Assembly (NCBI RefSeq): GCF_036013915.1
Contig: NZ_CP107899.1
Location: 1,612,001-1,676,000 of the forward strand
DNA: 64,000 nt
Direction: 5' to 3'
Origin: Streptomyces sp. NBC_00464
GTDB taxonomy: Bacteria; Actinomycetota; Actinomycetes; Streptomycetales; Streptomycetaceae
Part shown: positions 5,405-44,071 of the stretch, one piece after another
Numbering within the stretch: position 1 is the stretch's first letter
Layout of the letters: each line of letters starts with the position of its first letter
Made by a program: the position numbers and the translations under genes
The notes under the pieces: model-generated
Told to the model about the DNA's origin: nothing
What the model saw: only the letters and a program-made list of their open reading frames with translations
The model's database searches: none

Positions 5405-6259
5405 ATGACACCAACGCTCGTCCGGCACCACACGCAGGCGAAGCCGTCCGCGCCCGTGGACACCGGTTCCCGCGCCCGTGACTGGGCCGAGATCCAGGAG
5501 CGGATGCTCGCACCGCTCTACGAGGCGGTGTACACGCGGCTCGAAGTCGGACCCGCCACGCGCATGCTCTCGCTCGGCTGCGGCTCCGGGCTCGCCCTGC
5601 TGATCGCGGCCGGCCGCGGGGCACGCGTCACCGGAGTCGACCCCGACCTCGACCGCCTGGCGCTCGCCCGGATCCGGTTGGCGGCCGGCCCGGAGAACGA
5701 GCGCGTGTCCGGGTCCGCCGGACCGCAGCTTCTGGAGTCCCTGCCGACCGCGGCCGCCGGCCACGAGCCCTACAGCCTGATCACCGCGTTCACCCCGATC
5801 GGCTGCTCCCCCGACGACGGCGAGGAGCTGGTGCGGACCCTCGGCACAGCGGTGCCCTCGGCCGGCCGGCGCAGCACGGTCGTCCTGACCGGCTGGGGGC
5901 CGCCCGAGCGGTGCGCCACCGATGCCGTGCTGCGCGTGGCGACCCGGCTCGCGGAGGGCCCGGGAACGCCGCGGACCACGGGCCGGCGCGGAGCCCGGCG
6001 GGACGACCTGGAGAACGTGGCGTTCCGGGCCGGGCTGAAGCCGGACGGCTCGGGGCGGGTGGCGTGCCCGTTCGGCTACGCGGACGTGGACAGCGCGGTA
6101 CGGGGCCTGTTGTCGACGCGGCTCTTCGACGCCGCGGTGGAGGCGACCGACCGGTCCCAGGTGGAGAAGGAGGTGGCGGAGGCCCTGCATCCGCACCTGC
6201 GCCGGGACGGGACGGTGTGGATGCCGAACGTGTTCCGCTACCTCGTCTGCACGACTTAG
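5405..6259 (+). CDS. Class I SAM-dependent methyltransferase
   Basis: Rossmann-fold methyltransferase with unknown substrate. Motif I is clear as MLSLGCGSGLALLIAA near residues 54-69, followed by the acidic end of strand 2 in VTGVDPDLDRLALAR. The C-terminal half (DLENVAFRAGLKPDGSG, VWMPNVFRYL) has the usual late beta strands. The protein has 284 residues and no signal peptide. It starts at ATG 5405 with a G-rich stretch about 8-12 bases upstream as RBS. It is transcribed alone, divergently from the SprT-like gene, and faces the FtsH gene across a strong stem-loop. Small-molecule or natural-product methylation is possible, but nothing nearby supports it. Confidence 0.8.
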   Translation: MTPTLVRHHTQAKPSAPVDTGSRARDWAEIQERMLAPLYEAVYTRLEVGPATRMLSLGCGSGLALLIAAGRGARVTGVDPDLDRLALARIRLAAGPENERVSGSAGPQLLESLPTAAAGHEPYSLITAFTPIGCSPDDGEELVRTLGTAVPSAGRRSTVVLTGWGPPERCATDAVLRVATRLAEGPGTPRTTGRRGARRDDLENVAFRAGLKPDGSGRVACPFGYADVDSAVRGLLSTRLFDAAVEATDRSQVEKEVAEALHPHLRRDGTVWMPNVFRYLVCTT

Positions 6260-6266
6260 GAGCTCG

Positions 6267-6298
6267 CGGGTGCCGGCCCGCGTGCGGGCCGGCACCCG
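6267..6298. terminator. Bidirectional stem-loop between converging genes
   Basis: A perfect 15-bp GC-rich inverted repeat (6267-6281 with 6284-6298) has a 2-base spacer. It lies 8 bases after the methyltransferase stop and 7 bases after the ftsH stop on the other strand. It has no U tract, as is usual in this genome. Confidence 0.8.
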
Positions 6299-6304
6299 GA
6301 AGCG

Positions 6305-8221
6305 CTACTTCGCCGGCCGGGTGATCCCGGCCGCCCGGTACGCGTCCGCTTCGTCCAGCGTCTCGTTCGCCAGCAGCGCCGTGGCCAGCGAGTCCAGCCG
6401 GTCCCGGTTCTCGCCCAGCAGCCGGCACGCCTCCTCGTAGCACTCGTCGACGATGCGCCGCATCTCACCGTCCACCGCGTCCAGCGTCGAGGGCGCCGCC
6501 GACAGGCCGTACGCCTGCTGGGCATCGCCCGGAATCGCCGTCAGCCGGCCCACCTTGTGGCTCATGCCCCAGCGGCCCACCATGCCCCGGGCCAGGTTGG
6601 TGACCTGTTCCAGATCGCTCTCCGCGCCTGTGGTGATGACGCCGAACACCACCTGCTCGGCCGCCATGCCGCCGAGCGCTCCGATGATCCGGCCGCGCAG
6701 ATACTCCTCGGTGTACGCGTACTTGTCGGCGTCCGGCGTCGAGAGCGTGACGCCCAGCGCACGCCCGCGCGGCACGATGGTGACCTTGCGGACGGGGTCC
6801 GAGCCCGGCTGGAGCATCCCCAGCAGCGCGTGCCCGCTCTCGTGGTACGCCGTCCGGCGGCGCTCCTCGTCCGACATGACGAGCGAGCGCTCCGCCCCGA
6901 GCTGCACCTTCTCCAGCGCGTCCGAGAAGTCGGCGCCGTTCACCTCCGGCTGCCCCCTCTTCACGGCGAGGAGCGCGGCCTCGTTGGCGAGGTTGGCGAG
7001 ATCTGCGCCGGTCATCCCCGGAGTCGTACGGGCCACCTGGGCCAGGTCCACGTCCCCGGCCATCGGGATCTGCCGGGTGTGGATCTCCAGGATCGCCTCC
7101 CGGCCGTTCTTGTCCGGCGGGCTGACCTGGACGATCCGGTCGAAGCGGCCGGGCCGGGTGAGCGCCGGGTCGAGCACGTCGGCGCGGTTGGTCGCCGCGA
7201 GCACCACCACGCCCTCCGAGCCGGAGAAGCCGTCCATCTCCGTGAGGATCTGGTTGAGCGTCTGCTCGCGCTCGTCGTGCCCGCCCATGCCCGAACCGCC
7301 GCCGCGGGCCCGTCCGATGGTGTCGATCTCGTCGATGAACACGATGGCGGGGGCGACCTTGCGCGCCTCGGCGAAGAGCTCCCGGACCCGGCCCGCGCCG
7401 ACGCCGACGATCATCTCGATGAACTCGGAGGCCGAGGCCGAGAAGAACGGCACCCCCGCCTCCCCCGCGACCGCCCTGGCCAGCAGCGTCTTGCCGGTAC
7501 CGGGAGGGCCCGCGAGCAGCACTCCCCCGGGCATCCGGGCACCCATCTTCCGATAGGCGTCCGGGTTCTTCAGGAAGTCGACGACGTCGTTGAGCTCGCC
7601 CGCGACCTCGTCGATCCCCGCCACGTCCTTGAACGTCGTACGCCGGTCCCCCTCCAGCTCGACCGGTTTGGGCGGGGCCTTGCGGCCGAAGCCGCCCATG
7701 CCGCCACCCATCCCACCGCGCGACATCCGCCGGGCGATGAACACCCACAGCAGGACGAGCAGCAGCATCGGCGCCAGCGAGAGCAGCAGGTTGGCGAGGA
7801 AGCTGCGTTCCTTGACGACCGGTTCGGCGGTGACCGTGACGTCGTCCTTGACCAGCTCCGCCCAGAGGTTGTCATCGGCGAAGGCGGGCCGCTGGGTGAC
7901 GAACTTGGTGTACTTGTCGTCCTTGCCCGGGACCTTCGCCTCCTTCTTCAGCTGCCCCTGGATGGCATCGCCCTTGGAGTAGATCTTGGAGACGTTGCCC
8001 GAGGTGACCTGCTTGCTGAACTCCGTGTACGCGATCGTCGGCTCGTCCTTGCCGTTGAAGAAGGAGAGCACCAGATTGGCGATCAGATAGACGGCCAGCG
8101 CGGTCAGCAGGAGTCCGCCCCAGCCTCCCGGCATCTTCCGGCCGGGTGGCGGGGGCTTCGGTGCACCCTCGGAGCGCCAGGGCTGATCGGTACGGTCGCG
8201 GGGAGGTACGGGGTTGGTCAC
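6305..8221 (-). CDS. ftsH: FtsH-family ATP-dependent zinc metalloprotease
   Basis: Membrane AAA protease that extracts and degrades membrane and cytosolic proteins. Membrane segments lie at about 33-55 and 143-163 and flank an extracytoplasmic loop. The AAA module has Walker A GPPGTGKT (238-245) and Walker B VFIDEID (294-300). The zinc site HESGH is at 460-464, and a later ESDLEQVTN segment probably supplies the third ligand, so the enzyme should be active. I start at the GTG at 8221, which has a GAGGAG RBS; the frame stays open to 8323. The N-terminal 30 residues are Pro-rich. Streptomyces usually carry another FtsH elsewhere, so this may be the secondary copy (from memory, not tested). Confidence 0.93.
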
Positions 8222-34788: not shown

Positions 34789-37014
34789 TCAGCCCTTGTC
34801 GAGGTACTCCTCGCGGTCCTTGTCGAGCAGGGCGTCCAGGGCGATGCGCAGCTCGGGCAGGTGCTCCAGGTCCGGGTCCTCGGCCACGACCGTGACGGCC
34901 TCCTGCCGGGCGGCGGCGATGACCTCCTCGTCGTCGATGACGCTCAGGACCCGGAGCGAGGAGCGGACCCCGGACTGGGCCTGTCCGAGTACGTCGCCCT
35001 CGCGCCGCTGTTCGAGGTCGATCCGGGAGAGTTCGAAGCCGTCGAGGGTGGCGGCGACGGCGGAGAGCCGGGCGCGGGCGGGGCTCGCCTCGTGGGCCTC
35101 GCTGACCAGCAGGCAGAGACCGGGAGCGGATCCTCGGCCCACCCGGCCGCGCAGCTGGTGGAGCTGGGAGACGCCGAACCGGTCGGCGTCCATGATCACC
35201 ATCGCGGTGGCGTTGGGGACGTTGACCCCGACCTCGATGACGGTGGTGGCGACCAGGACGTCGACCTGGCCCGCGGCGAAGCGGCGCATCACGTCGTCCT
35301 TGTCGTCGGGGTGCATCCTGCCGTGCAGCACCTCGATGCGCAGACCGGTCAGCAGGCCCTTGGAGAGCTGCTCGGCGATCTCCAGGACGGCGAGCGGAGG
35401 GCGCTTGTCCCCCTCCTCCTTCTCCTTCTCCTCGGCGGCCTTCTTCTTCCCCTTCTTCTTGGCGGCGTCGTCCTCGTCGTCACCGATGCGGGGGCAGACC
35501 ACATACGCCTGGTGGCCGTTCTCCACCTCTTCGCGGACCCGTTCCCAGGCGCGGCTGAGGAAGTGGGGTTTGTCCTTGGCGGGGACGACATGACTGGCGA
35601 TCGGCGAGCGGCCGGCCGGCAGCTGGTCCAGGACGGAGGTCTCCAGATCGCCGAAGACGGTCATGGCGACCGTACGGGGAATGGGAGTGGCGGTCATGAC
35701 GAGCAGATGCGGCGGCTGCTTCCCCTTGGAGCGCAGGGCGTCGCGCTGTTCCACCCCGAAGCGGTGCTGCTCGTCGACGACGACGAGGCCCAGGTCGTGG
35801 AACTGCACCTTGTCCTCGATCAGCGCATGCGTCCCGATGACGATCCCGGCCTCGCCGGTGACCAGGTCGAGAAGGGCCTGCCGACGGGCCGCCATGCCCA
35901 TCGAACCGGTCAGCAGCACCACCTTCGTGCCCTGGTCCGAGCCGCCCAGCATGCCGCCCTCGGCGAGCTCCCCCATCATCTCGGTGATGGACCTGTGGTG
36001 CTGCTGTGCGAGGACCTCGGTGGGGGCGAGCATGGCGGCCTGTCCGCCGGCGTCGACGGTGCCCAGCATGGCGCGCAGCGCGACCATCGTCTTCCCCGAT
36101 CCGACTTCCCCCTGGAGCAGCCGGTGCATCGGGTGCTCGGTCGCCAGGTCGTCGAAGATCTCCTTGGAGACCTTGACCTGGCCGTCGGTGAGGGTGAACG
36201 GCAGTTTGGCGTCGAAGGCGTCGAGGAGTCCGCCGGGGACCGGCTTGCGGGCGACGGCGGGCAGCTGGGTGTCCGCGTATCTGCGGCGGGCCAGGGCGAC
36301 CTGGAGGACGAACGCCTCGTCCCACTTCAGGCGGTCCCTGGCCTCGGCGACATCGGCCTTGGTCTGCGGCCGGTGGATCTTCAGGAGGGCCTCGGGCAGC
36401 GCGGTGAAGCCACGGCCCTCGCGCAGCGCGGCCGGCAGCGGGTCCACGGCCTCCTGGGCGCTGGGCAGCACCGCGTCGACCGCCTTGGCGATGCGCCAGG
36501 AGTCGAGCTGTTTGCAGGCGGGGTAGATCGGAAGCAGCTTGCCGGCGAAGGCGTCGACGGCCTCGGTCGCCCCGGCCTCGTCGTCGGACTCGGCGTCCAG
36601 CAGCTGGTACGTGGGGTGGGCCAGCTGCATCTTGCGGTTGAAGACGGAGACCTTGCCGGCGAACATGGCGCGCCGCCCCGGCAGCAGCTCCTTGTGCGGC
36701 TTGTGGACGCCGTGGCCGAAGAAGACCAGCTGGAGCCGGCCGTGGCCGTCGGTGAGGGTCACTTCGAGGCGCTTGCCCCGGCCGCCGTTGAACATCATCA
36801 CGCGGGCGTCCTGGACCTGGGCGACGACCGTCACGTGCTCCTCCAGGGGGAGGTCGGTCAGCGCCGTGAGGCGGCCGCGCTCCTCGTACCGCCTCGGGTA
36901 GTGATGCAGGAGATCACCGACCGTGTGCAGGTCGAGGTGCTCGGCCATCACCTTCGCGGTGGCGCCACCGAGCAGTTTCTTGAGGGGTTCGTCGAACGCA
37001 GACACGCGATCCAT
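34789..37014 (-). CDS. recG: ATP-dependent DNA helicase RecG
   Basis: Branch-migrating helicase that rescues stalled forks and processes recombination intermediates. The N-terminal wedge/OB domain (LHTVGDLLHHYPRRYEERG) is followed by superfamily 2 helicase motifs: GEVGSGKTMVALRAM, the motif II VVDEQHRFGVEQR, ATPIPRT and DADRFGVSQLHQLRGRVGRG. A Lys/Glu-rich insert near residue 525 (encoded near 35410-35470) is unusual but lies in a surface loop. I chose the ATG at 37014 (MDRVSAFDEPLKKLLG); the frame is open 13 codons further. It is divergent from the HSP90-family gene. Confidence 0.96.
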   Translation of the reverse strand: MDRVSAFDEPLKKLLGGATAKVMAEHLDLHTVGDLLHHYPRRYEERGRLTALTDLPLEEHVTVVAQVQDARVMMFNGGRGKRLEVTLTDGHGRLQLVFFGHGVHKPHKELLPGRRAMFAGKVSVFNRKMQLAHPTYQLLDAESDDEAGATEAVDAFAGKLLPIYPACKQLDSWRIAKAVDAVLPSAQEAVDPLPAALREGRGFTALPEALLKIHRPQTKADVAEARDRLKWDEAFVLQVALARRRYADTQLPAVARKPVPGGLLDAFDAKLPFTLTDGQVKVSKEIFDDLATEHPMHRLLQGEVGSGKTMVALRAMLGTVDAGGQAAMLAPTEVLAQQHHRSITEMMGELAEGGMLGGSDQGTKVVLLTGSMGMAARRQALLDLVTGEAGIVIGTHALIEDKVQFHDLGLVVVDEQHRFGVEQRDALRSKGKQPPHLLVMTATPIPRTVAMTVFGDLETSVLDQLPAGRSPIASHVVPAKDKPHFLSRAWERVREEVENGHQAYVVCPRIGDDEDDAAKKKGKKKAAEEKEKEEGDKRPPLAVLEIAEQLSKGLLTGLRIEVLHGRMHPDDKDDVMRRFAAGQVDVLVATTVIEVGVNVPNATAMVIMDADRFGVSQLHQLRGRVGRGSAPGLCLLVSEAHEASPARARLSAVAATLDGFELSRIDLEQRREGDVLGQAQSGVRSSLRVLSVIDDEEVIAAARQEAVTVVAEDPDLEHLPELRIALDALLDKDREEYLDKG

Positions 37015-37071
37015 TGCACACCACGCCACTGACAGTTGTCCGCCGGGCGCCACCGGGCCCCCCGAAACTCC

Positions 37072-37101
37072 TGGTCAGAATCGCGCCCGCAACTCTAGGA
37101 T
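37072..37101 (+). promoter_or_regulatory. Candidate promoter of the HSP90-TPR operon
   Basis: TGGTCA (37072-37077), an 18-base spacer and TAGGAT (37096-37101) form a plausible promoter. The inferred 5' leader of about 80 bases contains a GC-rich hairpin near 37125-37145 formed around an ACCCC/GGGGG repeat. No CIRCE or other heat-shock operator was recognised. Confidence 0.5.
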
Positions 37102-37187
37102 CGGCTCCCACGCTTCTCGTTCGCGATCACCCCGCGGGGGGTCGCCCGACCCGCGCTGTCGCAAGTCCCCCCACCGGCGCTGCGACG

Positions 37188-39068
37188 ATGACATCTGAGA
37201 CCTCAGCGAATTCCGCGTCCACCGAGTCCGCCACCGCCCAGCAGCCGCACACCTTCCAGGTGGATCTGCGCGGACTGGTCGATCTCCTCTCCCATCACCT
37301 CTACTCCTCGCCCCGCGTCTATCTGCGCGAGCTGCTGCAGAACGCCGTCGACGCCATCACGGCCCGGCGTGCCGAGCAGCCGGACGCGCCCGCTCTGGTG
37401 CGGCTGTACGCCGAGGACGGCCGGCTGCGCGTCGAGGACAGCGGCATCGGTCTGACCGAGACGGATGTGCACAGCCTCCTCGCCACGATCGGCCGCAGCT
37501 CCAAGCGCGACGGGGCGGAGGGGCTCGCCTCGGCGCGCGCGGACTTCCTCGGCCAGTTCGGCATCGGGCTGCTGGCCTGCTTCGTCGTCGCGGCCGAGAT
37601 CCGGGTGGTGAGCCGCTCCGCGCGGACGCCCGGCGCCCCGCCCGTGGAGTGGTGCGCCCGTGACGACGGTTCGTACACCGTCCGTACGCTCCCCGACAGC
37701 GCGCGCCCCGAGCCCGGCACCACCGTGCATCTGACGGCCCGTTCCGGCAGCGCCCAGTGGCTCACCGAGGAACGGGTGCTCGCGCTGGCCAGGGACTTCG
37801 GCTCGCTCCTGCCCTACGACGTACGGGTCGGCGAGGCGGCCGTCACCGATCTGCCCGCACCGTGGGACCGCGCGTACCCGAGTCCGGCGGGTCGGCGGGT
37901 GGCGCTGGCGCGCCACTGCCACGAGCTGTTCGGCTTCACCCCGCTCGACACGATCGATCTCGATCTGCCGCTCGCCGGGATCCGCGGGGTGGCCCATGTC
38001 CTGCCGTCAGCCGTCAGTCCGGCACAGCGCGCGGGCCACCGGGTCCATCTGAAGGGCATGCTGCTGACGGACCGGGCGGACGAGCTGCTGCCCGAGTGGG
38101 CGTTCTTCGTGCGGTGCGTCATCGACACGGACAGTCTGCGGCCCACCGCCTCCCGGGAGGCGCTGTACGCGGACGAGACCCTGGCCGCGGTCCGGGACGC
38201 GCTGGGCGAGCGGATCAGGGACTGGCTGACCGGTCTGGCCGCGGGCGAACCGGAGCGACTGGCGGAGTTCCTGTCCGTGCACCACCTGGGTGTGAAGTCG
38301 CTCGCCCGGCACGACAGCGCCATGCTGCGCACGATGCTGCCGTGGCTGCCGTTCGAGACGACGGACGGACGGCTGTCGCTGGAGGAGTTCGCCCGGCGCC
38401 ATCCGGTGGTGCACTTCACCCGGACCGTGGAGGAGTTCCGGCAGGTCGCGCCGATCGCCTCCGCGCAGGGCATCGGGGTCGTCAACGGCGGGTACACGTA
38501 CGACACCGAGCTGGTCGAGCGGCTGCCCTCGGCCCGGCCGGGGACGGTGGTCGCGGAGCTGGACGCCGACACGGTCACCGCCCACCTGGACTCCGTCGAC
38601 CCGGAGGAGGAGCTGGCGCTCGGCGCGTTCCTCACGGCGGCGCGCGCCAGGCTGGACCCGCTGGGCTGCGATGTGGCGTTGCGCGCCTTCCACCCGCTGA
38701 CGGTGCCGGCGCTGCATCTGGACGACCGTTCGGCCCGCCACGAGCAGGCGCGCGCCGAGGCCGAGGAGCAGGCGGACGATCTGTGGGCGGGCATTCTCGG
38801 CTCGCTGCGCGGCAGTGCGCCGCGGGCCCGGCTCGTACTGAACCATCTCAATCCGTTGATCCGCCGGATCAGTTCGCTGGACAGCCCGGAGCTGGCGGTG
38901 ACCGCGACGGAGGCGCTGTACGGGCAGGCGCTGCTGATGGCCCAGCGGCCGCTGCGGCCGGCCGACTCGGCGCTGCTGAACCGGGCCTTCCTCGGCCTGC
39001 TGGAGTGGGCCACCCATCCCGCCGCCCCGGGGCACTCCCCCGCGAACCCTCAGGAGGACGGCCGATGA
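37188..39068 (+). CDS. HSP90-family ATPase (HtpG-like)
   Basis: Molecular-chaperone-type GHKL ATPase. The N-terminal ATP site is intact: Glu48 and Asn52 in YLRELLQNAVDAI, the DSGIG loop at 84-88, the lid segment IGRSSKRDG, and FGIG at 124-127. The middle domain carries the HSP90 catalytic-arginine region in the form LRPTASREAL (SRE at 322-324). The length of 626 residues matches bacterial HtpG, but overall sequence is diverged and the C-terminal third is poorly recognisable; there is no MEEVD tail. The ATG at 37188 has no clear RBS. The stop overlaps the start of a TPR-like gene (ATGA), so the two proteins are probably made together. Substrates are unknown. Confidence 0.88.
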   Translation: MTSETSANSASTESATAQQPHTFQVDLRGLVDLLSHHLYSSPRVYLRELLQNAVDAITARRAEQPDAPALVRLYAEDGRLRVEDSGIGLTETDVHSLLATIGRSSKRDGAEGLASARADFLGQFGIGLLACFVVAAEIRVVSRSARTPGAPPVEWCARDDGSYTVRTLPDSARPEPGTTVHLTARSGSAQWLTEERVLALARDFGSLLPYDVRVGEAAVTDLPAPWDRAYPSPAGRRVALARHCHELFGFTPLDTIDLDLPLAGIRGVAHVLPSAVSPAQRAGHRVHLKGMLLTDRADELLPEWAFFVRCVIDTDSLRPTASREALYADETLAAVRDALGERIRDWLTGLAAGEPERLAEFLSVHHLGVKSLARHDSAMLRTMLPWLPFETTDGRLSLEEFARRHPVVHFTRTVEEFRQVAPIASAQGIGVVNGGYTYDTELVERLPSARPGTVVAELDADTVTAHLDSVDPEEELALGAFLTAARARLDPLGCDVALRAFHPLTVPALHLDDRSARHEQARAEAEEQADDLWAGILGSLRGSAPRARLVLNHLNPLIRRISSLDSPELAVTATEALYGQALLMAQRPLRPADSALLNRAFLGLLEWATHPAAPGHSPANPQEDGR

Positions 39069-41983
39069 GCGCCGATGCCGCGACGATCCGCCAGGCACTG
39101 CGGGACAACCAGGAGGAGCCGGAGGGGCCCGCGCGCAACGCGCGTGCGGAGCGGCTGCTGACCGAGGCGGAGCAGAGCGGGGACGCGGCGCTGCTGGTCG
39201 AGGCGCTCGTCCATCAGCTGCAGGTCTACAACTACAGCTCCGAGAAGGACAAGATGTTCGTCCCGTTCGCGCGGCTGCTGCGGCTGTGGGACGAACGGCC
39301 GGGCGACTTCGACCCGTTCATGACCCACCACCTCTTCTGGATGTTCAAGTGGGTCTCCAGTTCCATGGTCGACCAGCCGCACATCCCGCTCGCCTCCATC
39401 GAGAAGTGGCAGAGCGAGATGGAGCACCGCTACCGGCTGGCGGGGCATTCCGAGCGGGCGGTGCGCCAGGGCGAGCTGGAGATCGCCCGGCATCTGGGCG
39501 ATCTGGAGCGGGCCGGGCAGGCGTACACCGCCTGGCAGGCGGCGGACCGGGACCGGATGGCCAACTGCCACGCCTGCGAGCTGCACGAGCAGGGCAGCTG
39601 GCAGGCGCTGCGGGGGCTGGACGAGGAGGCGCTGGCGGCCTGGGCGCCGGTGCTGGAGGGAGAGCACGTCTGCGCGCACGAACCGCATGCGGTGCTGGCC
39701 GCCTCGCTTCTCCCGCTGCTGCGGACGGGGCGTGCGGAGCAGGCCCGCGCGCATCATCTGCGCGGGTACCGGATGGTCCGGCCGATGGAGAGCATGCGCT
39801 ACTCGGTCGCGCTGCACGTCGAGTTCTGTGTGCTGACCGGCAACGAGCCCCGCGCTCTGGAGATCCTGGCGGACCGGCCCGCGTACTTCACCGACAGCGG
39901 GAATCCCGGCAGCCTGACGGACTACCTGACCGTCACCGCCTTGCTGATGGACCGGCTGACCGGACTGGGGCACGGTGCGCAGTCCGTACCCGGCCCGGCC
40001 GGCACGGACTGGACCGCCGCGTCGCTGGCCGTCGAGGCCAGGGCCCAGGCGCTCGCCCTCGCGGCCCGCTTCGACGCACGCAACGGCAACGCGTACGTGG
40101 GTGAGCAGGTGCGGGAACGCCTGGCGCGCCGCCCTCTGCTGGACCGGCTGCCTCTGGGCGTACGGGCCGTGCGGCTCACGGCGCCGTCCGCTCCGCCGGC
40201 TTCCGCGGTGGCGCCCGCCGCGGCGGAACCCGCGCAGGACCTGGCCGGGCTGCTGGCCGAGGCGCACCGGCTCTCGGACGCCCAGCATCCGGACGCCGGG
40301 TCCGCCTGGCGGGCGGTCGCGGAGCGGGCCGGGCAGCCCGGGGAGGCCGACGCACTGACGGCCCACGACCGGGCGAACGTGGCGGACCATCGCGCGATGG
40401 ACGGTTCGCTGCCGCCCGCCGAGGCGGCGGAGGTGTTCCGGACGGCCGCCCGGCTGTACGAGGCGGCCGGCGACCACGGCGAGGCCGTCGCGGCGGACGC
40501 CAGGGGCGCCTTCCTCCGCTCGACGCAGGACGGCGCGGCCGACGAGGCGCTGACGGAGATCGCCCCGCTCGTGGAGCGGGCTCTCGCCCTGCACGCGGAG
40601 GGCGGGGCCACGGACCGGCAGGCGAGCGGGGTGCTGGTCTGCCGGGCCCGGATCCTTCAGCAGCTGATGTTGCGGGCCGCGGACGAGGAGGCCACGGACG
40701 CGGCGGTCGCCGCTCTCGGACAGGCGGCGCACGAGGTGCTCGCCTTCGCCGAAGCCCTGCGTACGCGGGACAAGGTGGCCACCCGCGTCTCCGAGGCGCT
40801 GGGCTTCCTCGCGGACGTCGCGGCCTACCGCGGCGACGGTCCGGCGGCGGCGGAGCTGTACGCGCGAGCGGCCGCCGAGGTCCACGCGGCGGAACTGCCC
40901 TGGTACGCCGTCGAGTACGAGTCCCGGACCGCACGGCTCGCCGCGCAGCTCGACGACCACGAGACGGCGGAGCGGGCCGCGCGGGCCGCGCTGGAGCACG
41001 GCGGGACGTCGCTGTCGGCCGCCGGGCGGGCCCGGCTCCATCTCCAGCTGGCCGAAGTGCTCGGCGCCACGGGTCAGTTCGCGCAGGCGACGGAGCACGC
41101 CCTCGACGCCGCGCACTGGGCCGACGAGGCGGACGAGAGCGAATCGCTGGGGGTCTACGCCCGGCACCAGCTCGGCGGCTGGCTGCTTCGGCTGGGGCGC
41201 GCGGCGGAGGCGGCGGCCGTGCTGGAGGCCGTACTGCCCGATATCTCGGCCGAGGACCACGGGGAGGGCATGGTCGTCCAGACGCTGTGGTGGCTCGGCG
41301 ACGGACTGTCCGCACTCGGTGAGCCTCGGGCCGCGGCGGAGTACTGGCTGCGGGCGGCGGACATCGCGCGCGGCTGGCCGGAGCAGGACGACCACGCGAT
41401 GCTGGCCCAGCTCGCCGGGCAGGCGCTGTTCCGGGCCGAGCTGAACCCCGAGGCCGAGCGGGCGTACGAGCGGGCCGGGGAGCTGTGGCGGGGGCTGGGT
41501 GACGTTCCCGCGCTGGTACGGACCTTGCGGGTGCGGGCCTGGATCGCGGTCCGGGAGGGACAGCCGGGGCTCGAAGCGGCGCGGGCGTTCATGGCCGCGG
41601 CGGAGCGGGAGTGCGAGGGGCCGCAGCTGCGGACGGAGCTCGCGGACACCTACCGCCAGACCGCCGAACTGCTCGCCCACGCGTGCGAGGGCGAGCCGGG
41701 CGAGGCGGCGGACGATCCGGCGCGGATCGCGTACGAGGAGGCGCTCGGGTACGTCGAGCGGGCGTCGACGGCCTTCCACGAGGCCGGCCCCGACCACCTC
41801 GGCCGGCGCACGGCCGCCGACCTGATGGCCGCCTGGCTGGAGGCGGACCTGGGCCGCGCGGACGCGGCGCTGAGGCGGGCCTCGGAGGTCCTCGCGGCGT
41901 ACGAGGGGGTGCCGGCGGGCACGGACGAGACGGTGGACGAGCGGCGGTCGGAGGTGGAGTCGCTACGGCGGTACGTGGCGTAG
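39065..41983 (+). CDS. Large TPR-like helical repeat protein, partner of HSP90-family ATPase
   Basis: An all-helical protein of 972 residues, coupled to the upstream HSP90-family gene by a 4-base overlap. From about residue 480 onwards helix pairs with TPR spacing are visible, for example AAELYARAAAEVHAAELPWYA, TAERAARAALEHGG, QATEHALDAAHWADEADE and ERAYERAGELWRGLGD. The first 350 residues are also helical but less regular (HHLFWMFKWVSSSM, HACELHEQGSWQAL). It has no signal peptide, membrane segment or catalytic motif. Eukaryotic HSP90 works with TPR co-chaperones, which makes a scaffold or client-delivery role attractive, yet this is inference from gene coupling. The stop lies in a G-rich repeat. 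Confidence 0.85.
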   Translation: MSADAATIRQALRDNQEEPEGPARNARAERLLTEAEQSGDAALLVEALVHQLQVYNYSSEKDKMFVPFARLLRLWDERPGDFDPFMTHHLFWMFKWVSSSMVDQPHIPLASIEKWQSEMEHRYRLAGHSERAVRQGELEIARHLGDLERAGQAYTAWQAADRDRMANCHACELHEQGSWQALRGLDEEALAAWAPVLEGEHVCAHEPHAVLAASLLPLLRTGRAEQARAHHLRGYRMVRPMESMRYSVALHVEFCVLTGNEPRALEILADRPAYFTDSGNPGSLTDYLTVTALLMDRLTGLGHGAQSVPGPAGTDWTAASLAVEARAQALALAARFDARNGNAYVGEQVRERLARRPLLDRLPLGVRAVRLTAPSAPPASAVAPAAAEPAQDLAGLLAEAHRLSDAQHPDAGSAWRAVAERAGQPGEADALTAHDRANVADHRAMDGSLPPAEAAEVFRTAARLYEAAGDHGEAVAADARGAFLRSTQDGAADEALTEIAPLVERALALHAEGGATDRQASGVLVCRARILQQLMLRAADEEATDAAVAALGQAAHEVLAFAEALRTRDKVATRVSEALGFLADVAAYRGDGPAAAELYARAAAEVHAAELPWYAVEYESRTARLAAQLDDHETAERAARAALEHGGTSLSAAGRARLHLQLAEVLGATGQFAQATEHALDAAHWADEADESESLGVYARHQLGGWLLRLGRAAEAAAVLEAVLPDISAEDHGEGMVVQTLWWLGDGLSALGEPRAAAEYWLRAADIARGWPEQDDHAMLAQLAGQALFRAELNPEAERAYERAGELWRGLGDVPALVRTLRVRAWIAVREGQPGLEAARAFMAAAERECEGPQLRTELADTYRQTAELLAHACEGEPGEAADDPARIAYEEALGYVERASTAFHEAGPDHLGRRTAADLMAAWLEADLGRADAALRRASEVLAAYEGVPAGTDETVDERRSEVESLRRYVA

Positions 41984-42042
41984 GGGGCGGGGCGTAGGGG
42001 GCGGGGCGGGCGTAGAGGGCGGGGCGGGCGTAGGGGCGGGGC
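41980..42042. repeat. G-rich short tandem repeat at the TPR gene stop
   Basis: Two exact 14-base copies of GTAGGGGGCGGGGC (41980-41993, 41994-42007) are followed by two diverged copies spaced by GGGC. The first copy contains the stop codon of the TPR gene. Runs of four or five G could fold into a quadruplex on the plus strand. Confidence 0.7.
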
Positions 42043-42061
42043 GCCGGGGTCGTCCGGCGCG

Positions 42062-42091
42062 GCGTCTCGTCCTCAATCGCCGGACGGGCTT
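42062..42091. repeat. Probable Streptomyces extragenic element
   Basis: The stretch around CTCGTCCTCAATCGCCGGAC followed by GGGCTTGATT resembles an intergenic sequence I remember from many Streptomyces genomes. The match is from memory only. It directly adjoins the 41-bp repeat array. Confidence 0.45.
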
Positions 42092-42338
42092 GATTTCCGG
42101 CCCCGGTCCGTGTCCGCGGCGCTACTCCACCTCGATTTCCGGCCCGGTCCGTGCCTGCGGCGCACTCCGCCTTGGATTCCGGCCCCGGTCCGTGCCGGCG
42201 GCGCCAATCCACCTCGATTTCCGGCCCGGTCCGTGCCTGCGGCGCACTCCGCCTTGGAATCCGTCCCCGGTCCGTGCCGGCGGCGCCAATCCACCTCGTT
42301 TTCCGGGTCCGGACGCTGCCGGTGGTGCTACTCCACCC
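42092..42338. repeat. Six-unit 41-bp tandem repeat array
   Basis: Units start at 42092, 42134, 42175, 42216, 42257 and 42298. The second and fourth are identical over 41 bases, and units 2-3 and 4-5 form an 82-bp duplication with two mismatches. Each unit carries a GGCCCGGTCCG-type core and ends with a CTCCACCTC-like stretch. The last unit includes the final three codons and stop of the leftward DhaL/DAK gene, so the array looks like serial duplication of that gene end. Together with the two repeats before it, it fills the 344-base gap 41984-42327. Confidence 0.85.
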
Positions 42339-43956
42339 CGATCAGCAGCGGAGCGCACTGGTGGCCGCCGCGGTAGACCACCGTGTCCACCGCCAGGTAG
42401 CCCTCACGGACGTGTTCCTCCAGCGCGTCGGCCAGGGTGTCGGGGACGTCCTCGCCGAGGACCAGAGTGACGAGTTCGCCGCCCGCCGCCAGCATCCGGT
42501 CCAGTACCTTCCGGGCCGTTTCGGGGACGTCCTCGCCGATGACGGCCACATCGCCGTCGATCAGGCCGAGGATGTCGCCGGCCTGGCAGATGCCCGCCAT
42601 GGTCCAGGACTGCCGTTCGGCGACGGCCAGTTCGGCGTAGCGGGTGGCGCCGGCCGCCGCGGTCATCGCGACGACGTCCTCGTCGAAGCTGCGGTCCGGT
42701 TCGTGGACGGCCAGGGCGGCGATGCCCTGGACCGCGGCGCGGGTGGGGATGAGGGCTACCCGGATGCCCTCGGTCCGGGCCTGCTCGGCGGCAGCCGCGG
42801 CGGTGTGGCGCAGGTCCCCGTCGTTGGGCAGGAGCACCACCTCGCGGGCGTGCGCACGGCGGATGGCGTCCACGAGCTCACCGCTGGCCGGGGGCTCCCC
42901 GGGCCGTGCCAGCACCGTCGTCGCCCCGGCCTCCGCGCACAGGCCGCCGAGGCCGTCGCCCGGGACGACCACCACGACCGCGCGCTGGGCGGGTTCGGGG
43001 CGGGCGTGCACCCGGTCCGCGGCGAAGTGGGTGATCCGGATGCGGTACGGCCGCCCGGCCTCGACCCCGGCCTCCACCGCCGCTCCCGCGTCGTCGACGT
43101 GCACATGGACGTTCCACAGGCCGTCGCCGCCGACCACCACGAGGGAGTCGCCCAGCCCGTCGAGCCGGGTCCGCAGCCGCTCCACGGCTTCGTCGTCGGC
43201 CTCCAGCAGGTAGATGACCTCGAAGGCCGGGCCGTCCTGCGGGTCGTCGCCCGCGGGGCAGTCCACGGCGGCGGCAGTGGCGGGAGCGGCCGCTGCCTCG
43301 TACACCCGTTCCGGGGCCCGGCCGGAGACCGCCTCGACCAGTGCGCCGAGCACCGCCACCAGACCCCGCCCGCCGGCGTCGACGACCCCGGCGCGGCCGA
43401 GCACGGCGAGCTGCCCGGGAGTCGCTTCCAGGGCCGTCCGCGCCCCTTCGTACGCCGCCTGCGCCACCGCGGGCGCTCCGGCGCCGTCCGGCGTCCGCCC
43501 CGCGGCCTCGGCGGCCTCGGTGGCCACGGTCAGGACCGTGCCCTCGACGGGGTGGGCGACCGCCTCGCGGGCCGACGCCGCGGCCCTGGCCAGGGCGATG
43601 CGCAGCGATCCGGTGCCCGCCCCCTCGGCCAGTACCCCGGCCATGCCGCGCAGCAGCTGGGCCAGGATCGTGCCGGAGTTCCCGCGGGCCCCGATCAGCG
43701 CCCCGTGCGCCATGGCGCGTACCGCGTCGGCGGTGGAGGGTACCGAGGTGCCGGTCTCGTGGGCGGCGAAGACGGCCTCGACGGCCGCCGCCGCGGATTC
43801 CACGGTCAGATAGAGATTGGTTCCGGTGTCGCCGTCGGCGACGGGATACACGTTGATCGCGTCGATGGCCTCACGCTCCCGGCCCAGTGCGTCCAGCGCC
43901 AGTGAGCACCAGGTACGCACCGCGACGGCGTCCAGGTCGTCGGCGGTCTGCGGCAC
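42328..43956 (-). CDS. DhaL/DAK-domain protein, FakA-like kinase subunit
   Basis: Two-part protein of 542 residues. Residues 1-200 form a DhaL (dihydroxyacetone kinase C-terminal) domain with the ATP/Mg stretch NVYPVADGDTGTNLYLT and ALIGARGNSGTILAQLLRG. The C-terminal half matches the FakA/YloV family (VVGGDGLWNVHVHVDDAGAA, VVVVPGDGL, VLLPNDGDL). FakA phosphorylates fatty acids held by a DegV-type FakB, but no fakB is seen here. The GTG at 43956 with a GAGGAGG RBS is chosen; the frame upstream to 44385 is not family-like. The 3' end lies in the 41-bp repeat array. It lies near recG and divergent from rpmB. Confidence 0.85.
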   Translation of the reverse strand: MPQTADDLDAVAVRTWCSLALDALGREREAIDAINVYPVADGDTGTNLYLTVESAAAAVEAVFAAHETGTSVPSTADAVRAMAHGALIGARGNSGTILAQLLRGMAGVLAEGAGTGSLRIALARAAASAREAVAHPVEGTVLTVATEAAEAAGRTPDGAGAPAVAQAAYEGARTALEATPGQLAVLGRAGVVDAGGRGLVAVLGALVEAVSGRAPERVYEAAAAPATAAAVDCPAGDDPQDGPAFEVIYLLEADDEAVERLRTRLDGLGDSLVVVGGDGLWNVHVHVDDAGAAVEAGVEAGRPYRIRITHFAADRVHARPEPAQRAVVVVVPGDGLGGLCAEAGATTVLARPGEPPASGELVDAIRRAHAREVVLLPNDGDLRHTAAAAAEQARTEGIRVALIPTRAAVQGIAALAVHEPDRSFDEDVVAMTAAAGATRYAELAVAERQSWTMAGICQAGDILGLIDGDVAVIGEDVPETARKVLDRMLAAGGELVTLVLGEDVPDTLADALEEHVREGYLAVDTVVYRGGHQCAPLLIGVE

Positions 43957-44071
43957 CTGATGGTCCTCCTCGAAACGCGTACCGGGACGGCGGGCTGCAC
44001 CGCAGAGTAGTCCCGGCCGGCGGCCGGGAGAGGCCCAGGGGCGGGGCGAGCGGCTGTGGACCCATGGTAGT

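Follow-up and report, generated by a model that had tools for sequence, protein, structure and literature searches.

Does any branch of bacterial HSP90 have a dedicated co-chaperone? The question is raised by two overlapping genes of Streptomyces sp. NBC_00464, which lie in a 64,000-nucleotide stretch of contig NZ_CP107899.1 (positions 1,612,001 to 1,676,000, forward strand). This whole stretch is referred to as the window, and positions are counted from its first letter. The first gene encodes an HSP90-family protein and the second a long helical-repeat protein of the tetratricopeptide repeat (TPR) kind, called the partner below. Passages of PMC7926864 describe bacterial HSP90 as having no identified co-chaperones that participate in remodelling, and passages of PMC11687934 credit it with only a handful of known clients. 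A near-obligate partner gene would offer a testable answer to the co-chaperone question for one whole HSP90 branch. The pair consists of the following features:

37188..39068, plus strand: HSP90 gene, 626 residues, NF010683/PRK14083 type (857 bits against a cut-off of 455)
39065..41983, plus strand: partner gene, 972 residues, N-terminal domain and TPR superhelix (Pfam, AlphaFold2)
39065..39068, plus strand: ATGA overlap of the HSP90 stop and the partner start (open reading frame coordinates)

A sequence-only reading of the window had predicted both genes and their ATGA overlap, and the open reading frame coordinates bear this out. The overlap of stop and start codons makes translational coupling likely. 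The shared promoter proposed in the same reading was not confirmed, with no sigma-70-type match at 36950-37250; this is a weak negative, as the scan was limited to the sigma-70 type and other types lay outside it.

Pairing of the two genes across bacteria

The sequence-only reading had taken the entire 972-residue protein as the partner of the HSP90. The partnership stands, and the conserved unit is narrower, comprising only the N-terminal ~365 residues (the N-terminal domain, NTD). In the samples surveyed, the HSP90 and the NTD co-occur near-obligately, with the NTD as the conserved partner.

Among 121 Streptomyces genomes (thresholds E <= 1e-60 for the HSP90 and E <= 1e-15 for the NTD), 75 carry the HSP90 (74 over the cut-off), 75 carry the NTD, and 74 carry both. 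The NTD lies directly downstream at 86 of 87 HSP90 loci, and the single unpaired locus is a 140-residue match at a contig end. HSP90 is absent next to 2 of 88 NTD loci. One of two rows from genome G305, the second piece of the same broken gene, was dropped from the count. The class sample comprises 296 genomes, with the HSP90 in 36, the NTD in 38, and both in 35 (hypergeometric P 8e-41, with relatedness ignored). Here, 40 of 41 HSP90 loci are paired with an NTD.

In a phylum sample of 296 genomes, NF010683 scores above its cut-off in 10 genomes (12 loci), and the partner is present at E <= 1e-10 in 12 genomes, including all 10 with NF010683. It directly follows the HSP90 in all 11 loci fetched besides the window, with a start codon, as chosen by the analysts, -7 to +26 nucleotides (nt) from the HSP90 stop. 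The ATGA overlap recurs in L032-L034, an 8-nt overlap is found in L035-L036, and start offsets of +2 to +26 occur in L037-L042.

When GTDB genomes were scanned with an alignment of the HSP90 alone, at least 553 relatives were returned, of which the best 80 were kept; these score best to a Paenibacillus-first alignment and are not a random sample. By their record titles, they belong to Bacillota, Planctomycetota, Acidobacteriota, Myxococcota, Bacteroidota, Pseudomonadota, Desulfobacterota, Deinococcota, and Actinomycetota, about nine phyla in total. Three loci (L080, L097, L115) were left out because the contig stops at the HSP90 or no more than 200 nt away, and the NTD adjoins the HSP90 at 72 of the 77 usable loci. 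At 70 of these 72, the NTD is on the same strand and its match starts within 1 kb after the HSP90 (within 60 nt in 66, and at or before the HSP90 stop in 29). L098 (convergent) and L133 (upstream) are counted as adjacent and not as same-strand downstream. L095, where 508 nt of sequence follow the HSP90 match, is counted as a match with a partial NTD, and at L116 the NTD lies in broken frames whose pieces were searched apart. The first NTD profile (A3) was built without any of the 80 loci, yet it matched all 72 adjacent ones, the weakest being L117 at 5e-7. At L128, the three A3 matches listed are later tandem copies, and the immediate neighbor was seen with an iterated profile.

The counts of 86/87 in the genus, 40/41 in the class, and 72/77 across phyla strongly support the fixed HSP90-TPR operon that had been suggested from the window alone, and they show that the two genes do not occur mainly apart.

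Controls and co-inheritance

The NTD is absent (E <= 1e-5) in 27 of 28 phylum-sample genomes with HtpG-like matches only, defined by an HtpG-like match above 110 bits and none over the NF010683 cut-off. It is also found at 0 of 20 htpG-like loci, where only 269-870 nt beyond each gene were in reach; the whole-genome control is the better of the two. The HSP90 and NTD trees are concordant. For 68 pairs (67 loci and the window), 44 of 65 splits are common to both trees, while 50 permutations of the labels gave a mean of 0.12 shared splits and a maximum of 1. Pairwise distances in the two proteins are correlated with a Spearman coefficient of 0.85, to which species relatedness contributes.

The HSP90 protein

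Judged by its ATPase site and the arginine of its SRE motif, the window HSP90 is a member of the HSP90 superfamily. NCBIfam NF010683 ('HSP90 family protein') matches it at 857.1 bits, above the NCBI curated cut-off of 455, which places it in that family. The canonical HtpG model NF003555 aligns to residues 21-587 with 173.5 bits and falls below its cut-off of 371. Pfam PF00183 matches at 30.5 bits, and both PF00183 and HATPase_c_3 are above their own cut-offs. The protein is the sole PF00183 match at E <= 0.001 in its genome.

Conservation was assessed in an alignment of 81 NF010683-type members (80 named loci and the window) with 20 HtpG-like proteins from Actinomycetota. The latter are NF010683 matches below the cut-off that were taken as canonical HtpG and not scored against NF003555. 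Three residues are invariant in both groups:

37329..37331, plus strand: codon of E48, which we take to be the catalytic-glutamate position of HSP90 ATPases (E in 81/81 family members and 20/20 HtpG-like proteins)
37437..37439, plus strand: codon of D84 in the DxGIG motif, presumably the ATP-site aspartate (D in 81/81 and 20/20)
38154..38156, plus strand: codon of R323 in the SRE motif, assumed to be the middle-domain arginine (R in 81/81 and 20/20)

A glycine of the GxxGxG stretch is likewise invariant (81/81 and 20/20). The ATPase site and SRE motif are intact, as had been read from the window. A FastTree tree sets the 20 HtpG-like proteins apart from the 81 family members with a support of 1.0 and a branch length of 2.84. 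Because the window HSP90 scores below the NF003555 cut-off and falls on a separate tree branch, it is assigned to a bacterial lineage other than that of canonical HtpG. The pair is thus not the ordinary htpG locus of the genus, an explanation that the sequence-only reading had set against its own proposal.

Solved TRAP1, HtpG, and Hsp82 structures match the HSP90 by sequence among the matches listed. The best stretch ends by residue 368 in each of the 60 matches shown, and the last third of the protein has no sequence match among these best stretches. The geldanamycin-related position L97, which we take to correspond to yeast N92, is Phe or Leu in 80/81 family members, and Leu is present in 6/20 HtpG-like proteins. 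Since Leu occurs in both types, the published S. hygroscopicus HtpG, as described in passages of PMC3603443, is not assignable to either.

The partner protein

By its TPR profile match and its helical models, the partner is a TPR or TPR-like solenoid protein. It is composed of two solenoids joined by a linker and contains two motifs that are conserved in the NTD alignment:

39065..40159, plus strand: NTD, residues 1-365, TPR-like solenoid (AlphaFold2 pLDDT 96.8, pTM 0.93)
39566..39568, plus strand: C168 of the cysteine triad
39575..39577, plus strand: C171 of the cysteine triad
39671..39673, plus strand: C203 of the cysteine triad
40070..40084, plus strand: FDARN motif (FDxRN), residues 336-340
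40160..40240, plus strand: linker, residues 366-392 (pLDDT below 50 at 375-387)
40241..41977, plus strand: C-terminal TPR superhelix, residues 393-971

A Pfam search with the whole partner at E <= 0.1 returns TPR_12 only (39.6 against 30.1 bits, best stretch 739-804). The AlphaFold2 model of the whole protein (mean pLDDT 93.7, pTM 0.88) is helical except for two short bridges, and the fold-search matches listed for it are helical-repeat proteins. For the NTD, the matches listed are likewise helical-repeat proteins, TPR-like or of other kinds. The earlier description of a 972-residue helical-repeat protein without catalytic motifs agrees with the profile match, the model, and the fold-search matches.

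On profile evidence, the NTD is a family without a Pfam or NCBIfam model of its own. The NTD stretch of the window has no Pfam match at E <= 0.001, and at the same threshold, TPR- and RPN7-type families reach at most four members each among 70 NTD proteins, with a fused YbjN domain in six. NCBIfam at E <= 0.01 gives zero families for the NTD in 8/8 proteins. The database names listed for NTD proteins are mostly 'hypothetical protein' and 'tetratricopeptide repeat protein', while fused ones are named 'YbjN domain-containing protein'.

The cysteine triad (CxxC...C) is an all-or-none feature: all three cysteines are present in 65/70 NTDs, and none of the three in the other five. The FDxRN motif is conserved at R339 in 70/70 NTDs, at N340 in 68, at F336 in 63, and at D337 in 60.

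Partner variants and NTDs without HSP90

Outside Actinomycetota, most partners at the 80 loci consist of the NTD alone, with about 350-390 residues, whereas the form found in Actinomycetota is NTD-TPR. The existence of NTD-only partners of about 350 residues outside Actinomycetota therefore makes the NTD the minimal unit. The Paenibacillus cellulosilyticus pair again has an ATGA overlap. Listeria monocytogenes carries two tandem NTD genes after the HSP90, and Myroides carries tandem NTD copies with and without the cysteine triad. In rumen-type Clostridia, a later gene of the cluster encodes an NTD fused to DUF4026 (L112:6519-8789 and L136:8195-10537), with a weak DUF2314 match in the L136 gene.

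Two unrelated kinds of chaperone-like protein, HSP90 and YbjN, occur as alternative companions of the NTD. In the Micromonospora-like genome G204 (L061:8532-10609), an NTD-YbjN fusion gene is preceded, with a 4-nt overlap, by a YbjN-like gene whose product is 44-45% identical to the YbjN domain of the fusion; NCBIfam has no family for this upstream protein. A second YbjN-type case is L147:5513-7524, and its genome, G579, also has an HSP90-NTD pair. PF10722 (YbjN) occurs in 17/61 listed NTD proteins, 16 of which are named Micromonospora. Actinomyces oris has a YbjN gene, a second YbjN-like gene with a score below the cut-off, and then an NTD-TPR gene. In Micromonospora-like genomes, the YbjN-like gene and NTD-YbjN fusion form a YbjN counterpart of the HSP90-NTD operon. 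The alternation of HSP90 and YbjN is the most suggestive clue to the division of labor: the NTD may act as adaptor or worker with HSP90 in the assisting role, or the roles may be swapped.

In genomes G171 and G204, no NF010683-family match reached the cut-off, and the HSP90 of G204 is HtpG-like only. A 479-residue open reading frame in G171 overlaps the partner start as ATGA and was considered as a new partner replacing HSP90. It was rejected, being antisense to a plus-strand open reading frame and having no Pfam match.

Two further loci stand apart. L151 (G372:C1:6374098-6386622) holds a second-copy remnant around 5930-6483, with 31 HSP90 N-terminal residues beside a partial NTD match. At L066, on Pseudanabaena plasmid ABRG53a, the gene of an HSP90-like ATP-binding protein lies between a TIR-domain gene, upstream and on the other strand, and a downstream TPR gene; a search with the NTD profile found no match there.

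Gene neighborhood and downstream repeats

The pair of the window is flanked by genes on the opposite strand, for which family models give the following assignments:

34789-37014, minus strand: recG (1155 bits against a cut-off of 995)
within 42328-44052, minus strand: match of the DAK2/YloV gene (439 bits against a cut-off of 396)

Upstream of the HSP90 gene are recG, rsmD, and coaD, and downstream of the partner the convergent DAK2/YloV gene is accompanied by thiD and thiL, all by family models. The recG and DhaL/DAK flanks named in the earlier reading are confirmed by these above-cut-off scores.

Streptomyces contains two clades of HSP90-NTD pairs. In clade A (the window and L032-L036), recG and the DAK2 gene flank the pair in 5/5 relatives fetched, with thiD and thiL also within reach in 4 of 5. 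In clade B (L037-L040), the HSP90 is 62-64% identical and the partner about 34% identical, and the 8 kb fetched to each side contain neither recG nor the DAK2 gene. Genomes G023 and G161 carry both clade A and clade B pairs.

No third shared gene stood out among the downstream neighbors, where the top Pfam family accounts for 5 of the 106 scanned. There were 136 selected, and the 30 left out come mostly from Actinomycetota, unlinked, or upstream loci. Upstream, 74 neighbors were selected and four scanned (L112, L130, L144, L128). A protein combining a periplasmic-binding-protein domain with GGDEF is encoded directly upstream of the HSP90 in Ruminococcus/Oscillospiraceae (L112:664-2769, L130:3847-5952, L144:3997-5967). 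The DUF6714 family is present in 4 of the 106 downstream neighbors.

Between the partner and the convergent DAK2 gene, at 41977-42342, are tandem arrays with 14/18-nt and 41/82-nt periods. These are the repeats that the sequence-only reading had noticed and taken as a possible rearrangement boundary. A 25-nt repeat unit, CTCAATCGCCGGACGGGCTTGATTT (42072-42096), has 84 copies in the genome at up to 3 mismatches, 37 forward and 47 reverse, and a control with the reversed pattern gave 0 matches. Because the repeat unit is genome-wide, it marks no private rearrangement. Its dispersed copies, together with the recG-pair-DAK2 order kept in 5/5 relatives, speak against the proposed boundary, which is rejected.

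Proposed mechanism and alternative explanations

The HSP90-NTD pair is probably a two-gene module in which the partner serves as a dedicated co-chaperone or adaptor, and the NTD partner is a strong candidate for a helper protein dedicated to HSP90 in bacteria. This reading is favored because, in the samples, the partner matches the HSP90 in its spread, lies next to it, has a fold of the protein-binding type, and showed no enzyme domain. The wide conservation is better explained by a co-chaperone role than by the dedicated client system that had been proposed from the window.

In this model, the HSP90 would be an intact, probably dimeric, ATP-driven clamp, and the second gene would encode a co-chaperone dedicated to it. 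Every version seen contains the NTD solenoid, which most likely attaches to the HSP90 by physical contact and, once docked, would tune its ATPase cycle or present substrates to it. The cysteine triad may be a metal site or a thiol switch that holds or regulates the NTD fold. In Actinomycetota, the second TPR superhelix added via a flexible linker most likely catches clients, which it could deliver, or recruits other proteins.

Several observations weigh against such a role. Five of the 77 usable loci across phyla (L093, L107, L121, L122, L143) are unlinked, with the NTD elsewhere in each genome; in the 4.6-9.5 kb around one NTD site per unlinked genome, and around another in the L076 genome, there is no NF010683-type HSP90. 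No NTD match accompanies the unpaired class-sample HSP90 locus, that of G532, whose protein is 35% identical over 524 residues. Conversely, 4/44 class-sample NTD loci have no adjoining HSP90 (G171, G204, G579:C4, G678), with the NTDs of G204 and G579:C4 each belonging to a YbjN operon; G204 is also the single HtpG-only control genome with an NTD. From the NTD loci without HSP90, including that of Actinomyces oris, it follows that the NTD can probably work without HSP90. An EEVD-like C-terminal tail is present in 0/81 HSP90s (one of the 81 is cut at a contig end), so docking cannot be of the eukaryotic MEEVD kind. Finally, neighbor conservation is compatible with a shared pathway in which the two proteins make no contact.

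The same coupling counts (86/87, 40/41, 72/77) are also expected if the partner is a dedicated client, a large helical-repeat protein acting as sensor or scaffold, whose folding or switching depends on the HSP90, and if the HSP90 has few other tasks. Being translated immediately after the chaperone would suit co-translational folding of a long solenoid, and the solenoid fold is also that of Rap and NprR proteins. The partner varies (NTD, tandem NTDs, NTD-TPR, NTD-DUF4026) while the HSP90 is constant, as if the partner were the working part. However, the 4/44 class-sample NTD loci without an adjoining HSP90, two of them in genomes (G171, G204) with no family match over the cut-off, do not fit well. 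As NTD proteins exist without an NF010683-type HSP90, NTD folding is not always HSP90-dependent, and a TPR-like solenoid of 350 residues would not obviously be an obligate substrate of a chaperone. A client role for the partner is considered unlikely, though more likely than the other alternatives.

A conflict or defense system, with the HSP90 ATPase as switch and the helical-repeat protein as sensor, is a less probable explanation still, at roughly the level of an outside chance. Presence is patchy (74/121 Streptomyces genomes over the cut-off), some genomes have second copies, and fusions or neighbors include YbjN, DUF4026, DUF2314, and an SMI1/KNR4 protein in Listeria, some of which are known from toxin-immunity loci. 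The ATPase domain also weakly matches defense models: PADLOC 2.0.0 gives partial ATPase-domain matches only, the best being TmtA at 28.8 bits over residues 24-143. Yet the partner has 0 PADLOC matches at E <= 0.1, and neither protein qualifies as a full-length member of a defense model. No PADLOC family exceeds 2 members among the 106 downstream neighbors, a pattern scan of viral contigs found only 2 weak domain relatives, and 5/5 window-clade relatives occupy the same recG-DAK2 site.

An ordinary HSP90 locus with a bystander TPR gene, inherited together by accident from one ancestor, is very improbable: although the window-clade neighborhood is conserved as a whole, so that adjacency alone proves little there, the counts contradict it, as the pair recurs in about nine phyla without a common third gene, the second Streptomyces clade has it without recG nearby, the unlinked genomes still hold both genes, and the NTD is absent from 27/28 HtpG-like-only genomes.

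The dedicated co-chaperone reading can be extended, more tentatively and at somewhat less than even odds, to a broader picture. An HSP90 branch of about nine phyla would have an obligate co-chaperone of an undescribed family, with a three-cysteine metal or redox switch, an NTD served by HSP90 or YbjN, and a client-selecting TPR addition in Actinomycetota. If this is true, bacteria possess an HSP90-TPR co-chaperone system of their own, in which docking does not rely on MEEVD. The NTD, at ~350 residues, would be a small model for the steering of HSP90 by helical repeats without a MEEVD tail, and a widespread, mostly unnamed family would gain a role.

Comparison with known systems

Canonical bacterial HtpG (NF003555, PF00183) and the window HSP90 are alike in their GHKL ATPase domain, SRE middle domain, and similar length. 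They differ in that the window HSP90 falls below the NF003555 cut-off on a separate branch, and in that HtpG-only genomes lack the partner in 27/28 cases. Chen et al. 2006 (PMC1525184), in the passages seen, split HtpG into Groups A-C. Group C, which takes in Actinobacteria and Firmicutes, is a divergent lineage of HtpG and may correspond to NF010683. According to the same passages, S. coelicolor has two HtpGs of 638 and 615 residues in different groups, the 615-residue protein being HTPG2, which may be of the NF010683 type. The term 'TPR' has 0 occurrences in the main text of that paper.

In Listeria, lmo0942 is probably an NF010683-type HSP90, an assignment that fits its position beside fri in the literature passages. 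We presume that lmo0941 is its NTD partner. Two papers mention lmo0942 and one mentions lmo0941, and the text passages seen name them in other contexts. No description of the HSP90-NTD pair was found among the titles and abstract openings listed from the open-license PMC literature, although subscription papers may have one. The near-obligate pairing and the NTD family appear to be undescribed, while the HSP90 family and the TPR fold are already known.

MalT domain III, Rap/NprR, and APC/C chain O have the same TPR-like solenoid fold as the NTD at 9-12% identity, and this common fold implies no shared function. YbjN is presumed to have no ATPase. YbjN/AmyR (PF10722) resembles HSP90 in pairing or fusing with the NTD in Micromonospora-like genomes and Actinomyces. 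Unlike HSP90, it has a fold that, as described in passages of PMC5398634, resembles class I type III secretion chaperones.

The pair can also be compared with the eukaryotic TPR co-chaperones of HSP90, among them Hop/Sti1, FKBP52, and Tom70. The likeness is at the level of fold only, and the window HSP90, unlike the HSP90 of those systems, is without an EEVD-like tail. The eukaryotic systems have a shared docking peptide, in place of which the bacterial pair shows gene coupling.

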